From assembly GCF_008195825.1 (NCBI RefSeq), contig NZ_CP043329.1:2604001-2668000 (forward strand): DNA of 64,000 bases, written 5' to 3'. Origin of the DNA: Pedobacter aquae. Its GTDB lineage: Bacteria > Bacteroidota > Bacteroidia > Sphingobacteriales > Sphingobacteriaceae. How positions within the stretch are numbered: the stretch's first letter is position 1; the number at the start of each line of letters is the position of its first letter. Shown piece by piece: positions 34,563 to 64,000 of this stretch. Below the pieces are notes generated by a model. That model worked only from the letters and a program-made list of their open reading frames with translations. It had not been told where the DNA came from and did no database searches. The position numbers were made by a program, and so were the translations under genes.

Positions 34563-34640
34563 AAATACAAAATATTGTTTATTTTATATGAACAATATGA
34601 GGAATTATTATAGTCTTTGTTCGCTTAAGCAGATTTTTTT

Positions 34641-35057
34641 AACCGCAGAGGGCGCAGTGTTCACAGAGATTTAACTGGTTTTATTACCTAGCTGGATGTT
34701 GTTTAGTGCACTATGTTGTCATCTCGAACGTAGTGATTTATCTCTTCTTGCAGGTTACCGTAGAGAAGCTTCGTTCACCGCAGTGACAAAAACCATGAAT
34801 GGAGTCGAAGGGATTGTCACCCTGAGCGGAGTCGAAGGGATTGTCACCCTGAGCGGAGTCGAAGGGATTGTCACCCTGAGCGGAGTCGAAGGGATTGTCA
34901 CCCTGAGCGGAGTCGAAGGGATTGTCACCCTGAGCGGAGTCGAAGGGTGGTGTATGACGACTAAAATGCTTCGACTCCGCTCAGCATGACACAAAAGCCA
35001 AGAGTTCTTAACATAGTGTGGCGATTGTATCGCCTTGATTATCTAAAGTGTTTTTTT
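34641..35057 (+). repeat. Composite repeat, copy 1 (417 bp, five 27-bp units)
   Basis: Parts in order: an AACCGCAGAGGGCGCAG segment; a long imperfect hairpin opening with TTGTCAT and closing with GTGACAAAAA; a tandem array of 27-bp units at 34813-34947; a final palindrome around ATGCTTCGACTCCGCTCAG; and a GGCGATTGTATCGCC hairpin. Without the array the unit is 282 bp. Open frames on both strands are by-products of the 27-bp period. Confidence 0.9.
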
Positions 35058-35393
35058 AACCGCAGACGGCGCAGTGTTCTCAGAGATTTAACTGGTTTTA
35101 TTACCTAGCTGGATGTTGTTTAGTGCACTATGTTGTCATAGCGAACGTAGTGACGCTATCTCTTCTTTTAGGTTATCCTAGAGAAGCTTCGTTCACCGCA
35201 GTGACAAAAACCATGAATGGAGTCGAAGGGATTGTCACCCTGAGCGGAGCCGAAGGGATTGTCACCCTGAGCGGAGTCGAAGGGTGGTGTATGACGACTA
35301 AAATGCTTCGACTCCGCTCAGCATGACACAAATCAACGAGTTCTTAACGTAGGGTGGCGATTGTATCGCCTTGATTATCTAAAGTGTTTTTTT
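35058..35393 (+). repeat. Composite repeat, copy 2 (336 bp, two 27-bp units)
   Basis: Same order of parts as copy 1, with the 27-bp array at 35231-35284. Core length without the array is again 282 bp. It adjoins copy 1 directly. Confidence 0.9.
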
Positions 35394-35421
35394 AACCGCA
35401 GACGGCGCAGTGTTCAAAGAG
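35394..35421 (+). repeat. Composite repeat, copy 3, left fragment
   Basis: Starts like the other copies (AACCGCAGACGGCGCAG) and breaks off after TGTTCA. The vapC stop codon begins at 35422, so the toxin-antitoxin module begins exactly at this break. Confidence 0.8.
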
Positions 35422-35808
35422 TTACCATATCACCTCTAAGGGATATTTTTTAAGCTGTTCATCTTTAGAGATTAAAACAAAATTATAACTTATAGCTGTC
35501 GAAATGATTAACCGATCAAATGGGTCTCTGTGAATGAATGGTAAATCTTTAAGTATATCCAATTCGCTCATAAGGATAGGTAAAATTTCAATATCGCTTT
35601 TTACACAAGCTTCATGGAGTTCCTGTAAACTATAAGATAAATTAAGTTTCCCTAGCGACTGTTTAATGGCAATTTCCCAAAAACTTGCTATACTGACATA
35701 AAGACTCTGATTAGCGTCTGTAAGAATCTTAATGGAATTACTAGACAAAGAAGAATGATTATCTTGCATCCAAAGTAAGGTATGCGTATCTAATAAAAAC
35801 CCTTTCAC
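35422..35808 (-). CDS. vapC: VapC-like PIN-domain toxin
   Basis: 128-residue PIN-domain ribonuclease with the acidic residues D7 (LLDTHTLLW), E45 (SFWEIAIK), D95/D98 (HRDPFDRL) and D116 (SKDEQL). This is the PIN group usually paired with DUF2281 antitoxins. It starts at the last base of the antitoxin gene, so the pair is translationally coupled. It sits inside copy 3 of the composite repeat. Intact by length and motifs. Confidence 0.92.
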   Translation of the reverse strand: MKGFLLDTHTLLWMQDNHSSLSSNSIKILTDANQSLYVSIASFWEIAIKQSLGKLNLSYSLQELHEACVKSDIEILPILMSELDILKDLPFIHRDPFDRLIISTAISYNFVLISKDEQLKKYPLEVIW

Positions 35809-36017
35809 TACATATAACTTTTAAAATCCTCAAGGGGATCGTCAAATGAGTCACTCATCTTCATTCTACCTTTTAATAAACCTAAAGGTCTTTTCTTGGA
35901 TGAAATGGAAGTTTTTTTTACTTTTTTTTCTAAAATAAAATCAATAAAATCAACAACTTCTTGTTGGTAGTTTTCGGGGATAAGCCTAATTTTTTCCAAT
36001 ATTTCAGTCGTACTCAT
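35808..36017 (-). CDS. DUF2281-family antitoxin of the PIN toxin
   Basis: 69 residues: an N-terminal helix with IPENYQQEVVDFIDFILE, typical of DUF2281 antitoxins, then a basic linker (KKVKKTSISSKKRP) and an acidic tail (DSFDDPLEDFKSYM) likely to plug the toxin. It overlaps the downstream PIN toxin by one base. About 190 bp of AT-rich sequence upstream carries no gene and presumably holds the promoter. Confidence 0.88.
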   Translation of the reverse strand: MSTTEILEKIRLIPENYQQEVVDFIDFILEKKVKKTSISSKKRPLGLLKGRMKMSDSFDDPLEDFKSYM

Positions 36018-36208
36018 TGATATCCTTAATTATTTAAATAAAAGTAATAAAATATTACATAAAAGCTATGGAAAAATATATCACTATTTTAATCTAAACG
36101 TGAGGTTCTATAATAAATTATTAAGTTATTTAGAGAAATTCCGCATTTAGATAAGTTCGTTTAGCATGAAACAGGATACTACTTTGTTTCACTTCTTGAG
36201 CTCGTTTG

Positions 36209-36270
36209 CAACGAGTTCTTAACATAGGGTGGCGATTGTATCGCCTTGATTATCTAAAGTGTTTTTTTTT
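36209..36270 (+). repeat. Composite repeat, copy 3, right fragment
   Basis: From AACGAGTTCTTAACATAGGG to the GGCGATTGTATCGCC hairpin and TTGATTATCTAAAG, the last segment of the unit. Together with the left fragment it brackets the vapBC module; the middle of the unit is missing. Confidence 0.8.
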
Positions 36271-36582
36271 AACCGCAGAGGGCGCAGTGTTCACAGAGAT
36301 TTAACTGGTTTTATTACCGGGCTGGATGTTGGTTAGTGCACTATGTTGTCATAGCGAACGTAGTGACGCTATCTCTTCTTTTAGGTTATCCTAGAGAAGC
36401 TTCGTTCCCCACAGTGACAAAACCATGAATGGAGTCGAAGGGATTGTCACCCTGAGCGGAGTCGAAGGGTGGTGTATGACGACTAAAATGCTTCGACTCT
36501 GCTCAGCATGACACAAATAAACGAGTTCTTAACATAGGGTGGCGATGTTGTATCGTATTGATTATCTAAAGTGTTTTTTTTT
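36271..36582 (+). repeat. Composite repeat, copy 4 (312 bp, one 27-bp unit)
   Basis: All parts present, with a single 27-bp unit at 36443-36469. The final GGCGAT hairpin has an extra insertion (GGCGATGTTGTATCG) and is imperfect. Confidence 0.9.
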
Positions 36583-37031
36583 AACCGCAGAGGACGCAGT
36601 GTTCACAGAGATTTAACTGGTTTTATTACCTAGCTGGATGTTGTTTACTGCACTATTTTGTCTTAGCGAACGTAGTGACGCTATCTCTTCTTTTAGGTTA
36701 TCCTAGAGAAGCTTCGTTCACCGCAGTGACAAAAACCATTAATGGAGTCGAAGGGATTGTCACCCTGAGCGGAGTCGAAGGGATTGTCACCCTGAGCGGA
36801 GTCGAAGGGATTGTCACCCTGAGCGGAGTCGAAGGGATTGTCACCCTGAGCGGAGTCGAAGGGATTGTCACCCTGAGCGGAGTCGAAGGGATTGTCACCC
36901 TGAGCGGAGTCGAAGGGTGGTGTATGACGACTAAAATGCTTCGACTCCGCTCAGCATGACACAAAAGCCAAGAGTGCTTAACATGGAGTGGCGATGGTAT
37001 CGCCTTGATTATTAAACGCAGATTTTTTTTT
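36583..37031 (+). repeat. Composite repeat, copy 5 (449 bp, six 27-bp units)
   Basis: The longest array of the cluster, six units at 36756-36917, all identical or nearly so. Core about 287 bp. Near identity of units suggests recent expansion or ongoing homogenisation. Confidence 0.9.
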
Positions 37032-37391
37032 AACCGCAGAGGACGAAGTGTTCATAGAGATTTAACTGGTTTTATTACCTAGCTGGATGTTGTTTACTGC
37101 ACTATGTTGTCATAGCGAACGTAGTGACGCTATCTCTTCTTTTAGGTTATCCTAGAGAAGCTTCGTTCACCGCAGTGACAAAAACCATTAATGGAGTCGA
37201 AGGGATTGTCACCCTGAGCGGAGTCGAAGGGATTGTCACCCTGAGCGGAGTCGAAGGGATTGTCACCCTGAGCGGAGTCGAAGGGTGGTGTATGACGACT
37301 AAAATGCTTCGACTCCGCATGCACAAATCAACGAGTTCTTGACGTAGTGTGGCGATTGTATCGCCTTGATTATCTAAAGTGTTTTTTTTTA
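37032..37391 (+). repeat. Composite repeat, copy 6 (360 bp, three 27-bp units)
   Basis: Array at 37205-37285. The final palindrome is shortened (ATGCTTCGACTCCGC then ATGCACAAATC), so its 3' arm is mostly lost in this copy. Confidence 0.9.
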
Positions 37392-37473
37392 AACCGCAGA
37401 GGGCGCAGTGTTCACAGAGATTTAACTGGCTTTATTACCTAGCTGGATGTTGTCTAGCGCACTATATTGTCAT
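37392..37473 (+). repeat. Composite repeat, copy 7 (left 82 bp only)
   Basis: Runs from AACCGCAGAGGGCGCAG to ATATTGTCAT and then leaves the repeat. The break comes right after the opening arm of the long hairpin. Confidence 0.85.
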
Positions 37474-37758
37474 AACCAATGAAATAAAGCTATCCTCACA
37501 GCTAAGTTTGCCATTGCAAAAGTATTATGCAAATTTTAAGTACTACTTTAATATATCATGTAAATTTAAAGTCTAAATTTCGGTTTAGTACTTATTATTA
37601 TAGCTAATGCTACTAGCTATCCTCTAAATAAAACTGAAAGACCTTGCATACGCATTAAGATAAAGGGGAAACAAAGTCACTCCCAACCCTGTATGTAGGC
37701 TGTGTGTAGCCTGTGTGTAGGCTGCGCCACGGCAATAGGTAAAATTTACAGTAATTCT
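37474..37758. other. Gene-free spacer with an 11-bp triple repeat at 37694-37726
   Basis: No coding sequence can be supported. It contains three tandem 11-bp units (TGTAGGCTGTG, TGTAGCCTGTG, TGTAGGCTGCG) shortly before the epimerase stop. Otherwise AT-rich with no recognised motif. Confidence 0.6.
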
Positions 37759-62779: not shown

Positions 62780-62842
62780 TCAATTTGTTTATATTATTTT
62801 CTATTTGTTTTTTCCTTCGCCTGCTTGCCTCCGACAGGTAGG

Positions 62843-62876
62843 CGCTCAGGGTGACAGTATTTTGTCATGCTGAGCG
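62843..62876 (+). terminator. Hairpin of facing repeat units (14-bp arms, one mismatch)
   Basis: CGCTCAGGGTGACA pairs with TGTCATGCTGAGCG around GTATTT, with one G-G mismatch and one G-T pair; GAGTCGAAG and a T run follow. Terminator-like shape on the plus strand. Confidence 0.5.
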
Positions 62877-62995
62877 GAGTCGAAGCATTTTTTTGAGTAC
62901 CCTTCGACTCCGCTCAGGGTGACATTCCCTTCGACTCCGCTCAGGGTGACATCCCCTTCGACTCCGCTCAGGGTGACATTCCCTTTGACTCCCCA

Positions 62996-63047
62996 CTTCG
63001 ACTCCGCTCAGTGTGACAGTATTTTGTCATGCTGAGCGGAGTCGAAG
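62996..63047 (+). terminator. Hairpin of facing repeat units followed by a T run
   Basis: A 23-bp stem, all Watson-Crick except two G-T pairs, with 6-base loop GTATTT and then CATTTTTT. Arms are a CAC/GTG unit and an inverted TGC/GCA unit. Matches an intrinsic terminator on the plus strand; it would act on transcripts towards the GIY-YIG gene's 3' side. Confidence 0.6.
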
Positions 63048-63162
63048 CATTTTTTGATTCCCCTTTGACTCCGCTCAGGGTGACATTCCCTTTGACTCCG
63101 CTCAGGGCGACATAACTCAAGGATACATGATTAAAGGCTTTATACCATAATCTTTTATTTAA

Positions 63163-63477
63163 TCATTTATTGAAATTATTAGCGCTACTTTGATTTTTAC
63201 AAACCGCTAGCTCCTTCAATTTCATCCAATTATTTTCTATAATCGCTTCTTTCTTTTTTCTAGTCCAGCCTTTTATTTGCTTCTCAAAAGCAATTGCCTG
63301 ATTTATTTCTGTAAAATCTTCACAGAAAACTAACTTAACTGGTCTTTTATTATATGTATAAGCATTTTTATCTTCTCCCGATTGATGCTCTTCTACTCTT
63401 CTTTCTATATTATTTGTTACACCCGTATAATATGAATGATCTCTACATTTTAGTATATAAACGTAATAGTATTTCAT
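63163..63477 (-). CDS. Single-domain GIY-YIG nuclease
   Basis: 104 residues, almost all one UvrC-like GIY-YIG domain: YVYILK (5-10), YYTGV (16-20), R27 in ERRVEEH and the late acidic residue E65 in AFEKQIKGW. The WTRKKKEAIIEN helix is typical of this URI-type group, common in Bacteroidota and of unknown function. The gene lies between two palindromic repeat clusters: 50 bp after its stop the IIa cluster ends, and the IIb cluster begins only 23 bp before its ATG. A role in repeat movement is a hypothesis. Confidence 0.9.
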   Translation of the reverse strand: MKYYYVYILKCRDHSYYTGVTNNIERRVEEHQSGEDKNAYTYNKRPVKLVFCEDFTEINQAIAFEKQIKGWTRKKKEAIIENNWMKLKELAVCKNQSSANNFNK

Positions 63478-63526
63478 ATTAGTTATTTCATTTTAAAACT
63501 TATCCTTCGACTCCGCTCAGGATGAC

Positions 63527-63622
63527 ATTCCCTTCGACTCCCTGCCTACCGGACAGGCAGGCGCTCAGGATGACATTCCCTTCGACTCCCTGCCTACCGG
63601 ACAGGCAGGCGCTCAGGATGAC
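63527..63622 (+). repeat. Two tandem 48-bp units (27-bp unit plus 21-bp insertion)
   Basis: Each unit equals the 27-bp repeat with CTGCCTACCGGACAGGCAGG and one more C placed between CTTCGACTCC and GCTCAGG. The inserted piece has complementary ends (CCTGCC/GGCAGG). Confidence 0.9.
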
Positions 63623-63653
63623 ATTCCCTTCGACTCCCCACTTCGACTCCCCA

Positions 63654-63705
63654 CTTCGACTCCGCTCAGTGTGACAGTACTTTGTCATGCTGAGCGGAGT
63701 CGAAG
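63654..63705 (+). terminator. Hairpin of facing repeat units followed by a T run
   Basis: Same 23-bp stem as at 62996, with loop GTACTT and then CATTTTTTTG. The loop differs by one base, the arms do not. Confidence 0.6.
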
Positions 63706-63743
63706 CATTTTTTTGATTCCCCTTCGACTCCGCTCAGGGTGAC

Positions 63744-63887
63744 ATTCCCTTCGACTCCCTGCCTACCGGACAGGCAGGCGCTCAGGATGACATTCCCTTC
63801 GACTCCCTGCCTACCGGACAGGCAGGCGCTCAGGATGACATTCCCTTTGACTCCCTGCCTACCGGACAGGCAGGCGCTCAGGATGAC
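63744..63887 (+). repeat. Three tandem 48-bp units
   Basis: Same 48-bp unit as at 63527, three in a row; the third has CTTTGACT in place of CTTCGACT. Sequences are otherwise identical, implying recent amplification. Confidence 0.9.
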
Positions 63888-63905
63888 ATTCCCTTCGACT
63901 CCCCA

Positions 63906-63957
63906 CTTCGACTCCGCTCAGTGTGACAGTATTTTGTCATGCTGAGCGGAGTCGAAG
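63906..63957 (+). terminator. Hairpin of facing repeat units followed by a T run
   Basis: Third full copy of the 23-bp stem with loop GTATTT and CATTTTTTTG after it. Confidence 0.6.
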
Positions 63958-64000
63958 CATTTTTTTGATTCCCCTTGACTCCGCTCAGTGTGACAGTATT

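Follow-up and report, generated by a model that had tools for sequence, protein, structure and literature searches.

Short palindromic repeats are very common in bacterial genomes, and the locus described here raises the question of whether a small nuclease gene and the palindromes around it belong together as enzyme and target. The window is a 64,000-nucleotide stretch at positions 2604001-2668000 of the single-contig genome of Pedobacter aquae (G000:C1; 3,854,044 bp). Near its end a single-domain GIY-YIG nuclease gene lies between two arrays of one palindrome, an arrangement that an earlier note on this DNA had proposed as a possible repeat-mobilising system. The best reading is a homing-type nuclease with hairpin-forming repeats as targets, analogous to REP/RAYT systems and built on an unrelated enzyme. 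We put the probability at roughly 0.7 that gene and palindrome form a nuclease-target pair, in which the single-domain GIY-YIG protein would recognise a 5'-tagged hairpin ((C/T)GTCA plus stem-loop) and the gene lives between copies of this target.

Table 1. Nuclease gene and palindromic repeats in the window (window positions unless marked otherwise)
Feature	Position	Strand	Details
GIY-YIG nuclease gene, single-domain, 104 aa	63163-63477	-	PF01541 E 7.7e-18; conserved Tyr, YTG, Arg, Glu positions present
Left palindrome array	62815-63117		TGTCA-tagged R1 arms, both orientations; one nested palindrome variant
Right palindrome array	63502-64000, on to genome ~2668063 past the window end		nested CTGCCTACCGGACAGGCAGG copies
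Inverted pair of R1 arms, REPIN-like doublet	62996-63047	+	folds as 23-bp hairpin
Further clusters of this palindrome, far from the gene and with no GIY-YIG gene of their own	34632-37494		other repeat family interleaved; PIN/DUF2281 pair enclosed

The palindromes that flank the gene on both sides are of the CTTCGACTCCGCTCAG type and occur in either orientation. The placement of an intact gene between two arrays of one palindrome agrees with what the earlier note had described (Table 1), and the gaps it had given as 50 and 23 bp measure about 49 bp on the left and about 25 bp on the right. The window contains 36 sites of the 15-base core TTCGACTCCGCTCAG with up to 2 mismatches, whereas 100 shuffles average 0.03, which rules out a chance origin of these copies. 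The amplification of the same palindrome at 34.6-37.5 kb, noted earlier as free of any nuclease, is also real; among the listed open reading frames of at least 60 aa in these clusters, none is GIY-YIG-like. A PIN-domain frame with its DUF2281 partner, a toxin-antitoxin-like pair, lies between two of the clusters (35422-36017), and a further repeat family (GGCGATTGTATCGCCTTGATTATC...) is interleaved with them at 34994-37416. A second palindrome of the CTGCCTACCGGACAGGCAGG type is nested centrally in several motif copies, five times on the right (about 63540-63880) and once on the left as a variant (62824-62843).

The window protein matches the GIY-YIG domain (PF01541) and no transposase family. 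Only three solved structures are matched, the UPF0213 proteins 1zg2 and 1ywl and, weakly, the structure-specific nuclease subunit SLX1. NCBIfam has no name for either of the two palindrome-class proteins tested, and Rfam gives only three matches, all to a microRNA family and far below the gathering score. The source genome contains 14 GIY-YIG matches, and 12 of these are short open frames of 81-133 aa. All 12 sit in repeats: one, the window gene, among palindromes, eight in an array of tRNA-Val-like pieces, and three next to tRNA genes (one tRNA-Arg, two tRNA-Ser).

The gene and the palindrome are linked well beyond this locus. Our sample comprises 105 regions around short-frame GIY-YIG matches, taken from the matches listed for 60 related genomes; 104 of the 105 regions matched the profile, and the one without a match (L133) was left out. 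In these counts single-domain means an open frame of less than 300 aa, the listed single-domain matches G048:C123, G050:C1, G014:C1, G058:C3, G001:C12, G007:C61 and G056:C2 are outside the sample, and related genomes are treated as independent in the statistics. Motif density, with 1 mismatch allowed, is 46 times higher within 500 bp of the gene than beyond 1.5 kb (77 sites in 107,160 bp near and 18 in 1,156,640 bp far), and the flanked loci number ten, in ten genomes. A protein-selected set was obtained by a GTDB genome scan with eight clade proteins, and the best 80 of 458 confirmed relatives include Pedobacter, Flavobacterium, Chryseobacterium, Algoriphagus, Dyadobacter, Mucilaginibacter, Sphingobacterium, one Marinimicrobia and others. 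The core, with at most 1 mismatch, lies within 500 bp of the gene in 71 of these best 80 loci, which contain 259 sites in 79.0 kb near the gene and 0 in 370.7 kb beyond 1.5 kb. Five of the 80 (L158, L159, L160, L169 and L215) are already in our own sample; without them, 66 of 75 loci are flanked, with 226 sites in 74.0 kb near and 0 in 345.7 kb beyond 1.5 kb. Of the 80 loci, 79 have a degenerate form of the motif near the gene, with 306 such sites close by and 7 far away, and the last locus has an exact site. The variant TTCGACAGGCTCAG, or a similar one, occurs at four loci of Mucilaginibacter and at three others. The enrichment of repeats near such genes, a check proposed in the earlier note, is thus found in both sets.

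The two flanks of a GIY gene also resemble each other. They share a 12-mer across the gene for 73 of 92 (79%) non-tandem GIY genes versus 48 of 683 (7%) control open reading frames from the same regions, and at least six 12-mers for 62 of 92 (67%) versus 11 of 683 (1.6%). A BLAST comparison of the flanks of 112 genes detects a repeat in 92, the best match being direct in 84 and inverted in 8. ParE genes served as a control; among 30 of them, 8 share a 12-mer and 4 share at least six, so this is not a property of any small accessory gene.

The linkage is specific within genomes. Where a genome has at least 5 motif copies, the motif lies within 300 bp of 10 of 14 GIY genes of the right clade versus 1 of 40 other GIY genes (Fisher 4e-7), and the sole flanked gene among the 40 lies 467 bp from a clade member (L091). 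This region belongs to P. cryophilus (G008), where a palindrome-type GIY gene and a tRNA-Arg-type GIY gene are that distance apart (L091:7549-8458); G008 and G003 are placed in the same genus as the source genome. Among the matches listed, at least 5 exact copies are present in 10 of 10 genomes with a flanked gene versus 8 of 50 others (Fisher 6e-7). Other GIY genes carry other palindromes or tRNA pieces. Thresholds divide 110 GIY proteins into 45 of a tRNA class, 37 of a palindrome class and 28 of neither, although two of the 28 (L065 and L066) do have the motif nearby. Between genera, protein identity covaries with the 9-mers of the near flanks in the palindrome class (rho 0.31) and in the tRNA class (rho 0.28; 0 of 500 permutations each), and far flanks show no such correlation with protein identity between genera. 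The comparison with REP/RAYT, already drawn in the earlier note, is an apt one.

A tree built on 78 columns, with 50 of its 107 inner branches open, places all 37 palindrome genes on one side of a branch together with 21 genes of neither class and 3 tRNA genes (SH-aLRT 88), and the tRNA versus palindrome state needs 3 changes. Several genera contribute to each of the Val-tac, Ala-ggc, Met-cat and Arg-cct groups, whose genes mostly cluster by tRNA type, with Arg-cct in two places in the tree. Leu-taa is nested beside Ala-ggc, and the Leu-taa, Arg-acg and Ser genes come from the source genus only.

The palindrome is constrained as a hairpin structure, as seen from covariation in its stem. The 246 distinct arms from 79 loci follow the pattern TGTCA-NN-CTGAGC-loop-GTCGAAG-N'N'. 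Pairing at the two variable stem positions is maintained in 235 and 205 of these arms, respectively, while shuffled means are 90 and shuffled maxima 113 and 112, and both positions show several Watson-Crick types. Positions further out on the arm pair within the shuffle range in the same 246 arms. The tag reads TGTC in 222 arms and CGTCA in 5, and an unpaired (C/T)GTC-type tag next to a stem-loop, a feature of CGTC-tagged REPs, is present here. A single R1 arm of the window has a 5-bp stem and a 12-nt loop; as single-stranded DNA it folds weakly (-2.2 kcal/mol, 5 bp), no better than shuffles. An inverted R1 pair folds strongly (23 bp, z -11.6). Inverted pairs occur among the arms of the window, where same-strand tandem copies are also common, and around the relatives as well, head-to-head and tail-to-tail pairs being pooled in both cases. 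REPIN-like paired arms with a short spacer are visible in the flanks of relatives, for example L206. Among the tetranucleotides that precede hairpins next to 27 further palindrome-class genes, GTCA, CGTC and TGTC show some of the highest enrichments (19-22 fold; 5, 9 and 12 loci), and GAGA and CGAG are equally high on fewer counts.

The copies dispersed through the source genome bear on a different account, in which the palindromes are moved by other machinery, such as DDE transposon ends or RAYT-like enzymes, while the GIY-YIG gene travels along as a passenger with a preference for repeat-rich intergenic DNA. Of the 101 motif sites in the genome, the two clusters account for all but 64, and at least 39 of the 64 lie in about 22 elements of about 125 bp with GAGGCTGTCTCAAA-type ends, some of them degenerate. 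The same type of ends bounds a 1.8-kb element that codes for a 511-aa DDE transposase (genome 259426-261230; L302) and that we take to be IS1182-like. Since these sites lie in IS-derived miniature elements, the nuclease need not have spread them. The elements carry a palindrome pair, and several are located at terminator-like hairpins. When 23 sites were compared with 400 kb of G013, both flanks were found together for two, 436100 (element missing) and 1150571 (spacing as in a filled site), and for another two the flanks were found in part or lay apart. At two orthologous sites G013 lacks the inner palindromes, and at a third the spacing is that of a filled site; these differences show movement of the miniature element, not GIY-driven movement. 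Insertion of the R1 pair into the loops of local hairpins was also considered. Site 420678 fits, as G013 has a bare hairpin with the same stem there, but at 436100 G013 has a different hairpin, and such insertion is therefore not claimed.

The passenger account also draws on palindromes that persist without a matching nuclease. The earlier note had expected the repeats to be enriched near this GIY-YIG subfamily, which holds, and not to be abundant in genomes lacking it; on this second point, among the matches listed, 8 of the 50 genomes without a motif-flanked GIY gene keep 8 to 54 exact motif copies, and in the genome with 54 (G053) the only listed GIY-YIG match resembles UvrC by eye. A passenger, however, would be expected to show no specificity, yet the motif accompanies the clade genes and hardly any others, other GIY genes have palindromes or tRNA pieces of their own, near flanks covary with the protein between genera, and ParE genes share flanks far less often. 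Spread by a DDE transposon could cover the dispersed copies here, not the clade-specific linkage elsewhere, and because this linkage would stay unexplained we dropped it as a full account. The passenger account as a whole is unlikely.

Nucleases related to the window protein appear to behave correspondingly at tRNA genes. A tRNA gene lies within 600 bp of 41 of 120 GIY genes, mostly on the same strand, and 47 tRNA genes are located within 500 bp of GIY genes versus 15 in the far zone. Many tRNA-class loci are bordered by a complete tRNA gene on one side and by a fragment of it on the other, and many of the breakpoints are near the anticodon arm, at positions of about 26-45. In a search of 198 genomes of the phylum with tRNA-class proteins, 128 matched; for the best 27 loci from genomes new to the sample, a tRNA gene is found within 300 bp in 24, all on the strand of the gene. 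The array in the source genome consists of seven tandem copies of a 358-bp unit of tRNA-Val-like piece and GIY gene, plus an eighth past an inserted element (2472620-2476509; L015:6615-10507). In the tRNA-like copies of this array the anticodon arm is replaced by TCCCGAT...ATCGGGA.

The tag leads to a described class of repeats. The passages of Di Nocera et al. 2013 (PMC3733652) used here distinguish GTAG-tagged REPs, tied to RAYT enzymes, from CGTC-tagged REPs (also TGTC and CCTC), which include Neisseria dRS3 and Rickettsia RPE-4/RPE-6, have 8-9 bp stems and 4-5 nt loops, and form mostly head-to-head (inverted) dimers. The same passages state that CGTC-tagged REPs 'apparently lack a dedicated transposase' and leave open whether, and by what, this superfamily is mobilised. 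The word GIY does not occur in the text of PMC3733652. Because no dedicated transposase is given there, CGTC REPs were looked for beside relatives of the window protein elsewhere. A tblastn search of a plasmid collection with one palindrome-class protein matched 32 records. The analysis covers 19 of these, three of them close Sphingobium strains; the other 13, which are close copies or strains of the 19, include six Rhizobium with the same identity as two REP-less Rhizobium records.

Strict tagged hairpins, defined by an 8-nt stem and a loop of 3-16, lie within 500 bp of the gene in 12 of the 19 records: Neisseria gonorrhoeae, Azospirillum lipoferum, Neorhizobium, three Shinella, Aeromonas caviae, Rhizobium CIAT894, Photobacterium and three Sphingobium. 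There are 41 hairpins near the gene (2.16 per kb) versus 16 far from it (0.14 per kb), and 12 of these 16 are in the Photobacterium record. The N. gonorrhoeae record has 11 copies, apparently of the type equated with dRS3 in the passages of PMC3733652. The gene has one hairpin on each side, the two being inverted, in Neorhizobium, one Shinella, Aeromonas and Sphingobium. Variant tagged hairpins are present on both sides in five more records (Novosphingobium, two Sinorhizobium, Planktothrix and Spirosoma), and the two Rhizobium records among the 19 have the nuclease with neither REPs nor variant tagged hairpins nearby. Of all 256 tetranucleotides, GTCA (43) and CGTC (41) are those that stand before the largest numbers of near hairpins. 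The repeats beside the proteobacterial relatives fit the published CGTC REPs.

These data make the GIY-YIG nuclease the best candidate for the enzyme of CGTC-tagged REPs, to which none has been assigned so far. We also lean slightly towards a broader view, in which the entire superfamily of CGTC-type REPs, from Bacteroidota and Cyanobacteriota to Neisseria and the alphaproteobacteria, would have single-domain GIY-YIG proteins as its dedicated enzymes, and these proteins would form, together with the tRNA-anticodon-arm enzymes, one hairpin-homing class consisting of little beyond a gene of about 300 bp and its target. In the literature covered by our search (titles and abstract openings, with most subscription papers outside it), GIY-YIG was not found linked with REPs, CGTC repeats, dRS3, RPE-4 or chromosomal tRNA fragments, and 'GIY' is absent from the retrieved passages of PMC8266576 and PMC6006769.

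The arrangement around the gene also speaks to the idea that the palindromes are regulatory parts of it (operator, terminator or mRNA hairpin), with copies elsewhere in similar roles. Several Chryseobacterium loci have one arm 12-18 bp upstream of the match start, and the location of several dispersed elements at terminator-like hairpins would suit such roles too. Repeat number, distance and order, however, vary widely among loci, and the arrays of the window are expanded on both sides. The repeats tend to be inverted about the gene, the nearest upstream one having one orientation in 51 of 70 cases and the nearest downstream one the other orientation in 28 of 42, and CGTC REPs take the same place in other phyla. 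We regard a regulatory role as highly improbable.

The gene-plus-repeat unit is present in some close relatives and missing in others. In A. lipoferum 4B a REP-GIY-REP unit lies between sufB and sufC; in 11 other Azospirillum records the two sides align as two separate pieces, and the stretch is shorter by about 500-600 bp. The 3 of 11 junctions inspected have short spacers and no REP, one of them with an unrelated hairpin. In seven Sphingobium records fnrL and a response regulator enclose the gene sequence (with no CDS annotated there in TomTYG73), and five records are shorter. In the 4 of 5 junctions inspected, TomTYG64 and TomTYG74 have at this place one REP-like palindrome that corresponds to the outer halves of the two gene-flanking REPs, with small differences in TomTYG74; TomTYG72 has another hairpin and TomTYG65 a short spacer. 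The Sphingobium gene thus lies inside what is a single REP in its relatives, an arrangement that homing into a REP, or a reversal of homing, would leave; the event could be a loss instead of an insertion. The filled and empty sites that the earlier note had suggested looking for are therefore found in Azospirillum and Sphingobium, but not at the window itself, where the unit keeps its neighbours across three species (G000, G013 and G003) and thus seems to be mostly inherited.

For the nuclease-target pair, the following course may be proposed. The protein would nick or cut the hairpin sequence, or DNA nearby. Host repair would then copy gene and repeats into another copy of the repeat, which is homing, or alternatively unequal repair would expand gene and repeats as tandem arrays. 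To our knowledge, GIY-YIG enzymes do not rejoin strands, so spread would rely on host repair. As far as is known they are hydrolytic, and for this reason we do not call the protein a transposase; in function the pair may correspond to REP/RAYT, with a hydrolytic nuclease where those systems use a tyrosine transposase. Least probable of all is that the protein serves the host in genome maintenance by removing or resolving hairpins, with selection keeping it near the worst of them, a role to which the matched UPF0213 structures (1zg2, 1ywl) and, weakly, SLX1 would point, but which leaves unexplained the clade-by-repeat matching, the tRNA class with its repeated tRNA pieces, the tandem gene arrays, and presence and absence between close relatives.

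The proposed pair has several known systems for comparison. The UPF0213 and other single-domain GIY-YIG proteins (PDB 1zg2, 1ywl) are sequence relatives of similar size, deposited as hypothetical proteins, and we know of no repeat linkage for them. A homing endonuclease gene lies inside a target that is intact in gene-less relatives; here, two Sphingobium relatives have one REP at the site, and the change may have gone in either direction. Homing endonucleases cut in a sequence- or structure-specific manner; here such cleavage is a prediction, and the conserved residues are in place. SegB, in the passages of PMC13096335 used here, is a homing endonuclease of the GIY-YIG type from phage T6; in phages, segB genes are found close to tRNA genes, a 718-bp unit of tRNA-Tyr and a shortened segB is amplified in tandem, and the authors consider that cleavage likely initiates this amplification. 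The likeness is a GIY-YIG enzyme at tRNA genes and a tandem tRNA-nuclease unit that resembles our 358-bp array. Unlike SegB, the genes described here are chromosomal and single-domain, their partner is often a palindrome instead of a tRNA gene, and their cleavage is only inferred.

The CGTC REPs described in the passages of PMC3733652 share their tag type with the window repeats (TGTC), and the palindromes of the proteobacterial relatives match that description. The published stems of 8-9 bp and loops of 4-5 nt differ from the 5-bp stem and 12-nt loop of the window R1, which shares the tag and not these lengths and is therefore called CGTC-like. In the passages of the 2013 survey used here (PMC3733652), CGTC is one of two tagged-REP superfamilies and the one without an enzyme. 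A nuclease gene bordered by such repeats in several phyla makes the question of their mobilisation testable with one protein and one oligonucleotide, and is itself a strong candidate for the enzyme that this widespread class of bacterial repeats has lacked. Should the tRNA group operate likewise, short palindromes, tRNA gene fragments and tandem nuclease arrays would share a single mechanism.

The closest parallel is with REP/RAYT systems, or REPtrons. In both, a small nuclease gene is flanked by a tagged palindrome that is present elsewhere in the genome, and in both the repeat type follows the enzyme. The REP/RAYT enzyme is an HUH tyrosine transposase (IS200/IS605 group, TnpA-REP) and its tag is GTAG, whereas here the enzyme has a GIY-YIG domain and the tag is (C/T)GTC. 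Because enzyme and tag differ, the system is not a RAYT; by analogy, we rate the pair as one that probably works like a REPtron.
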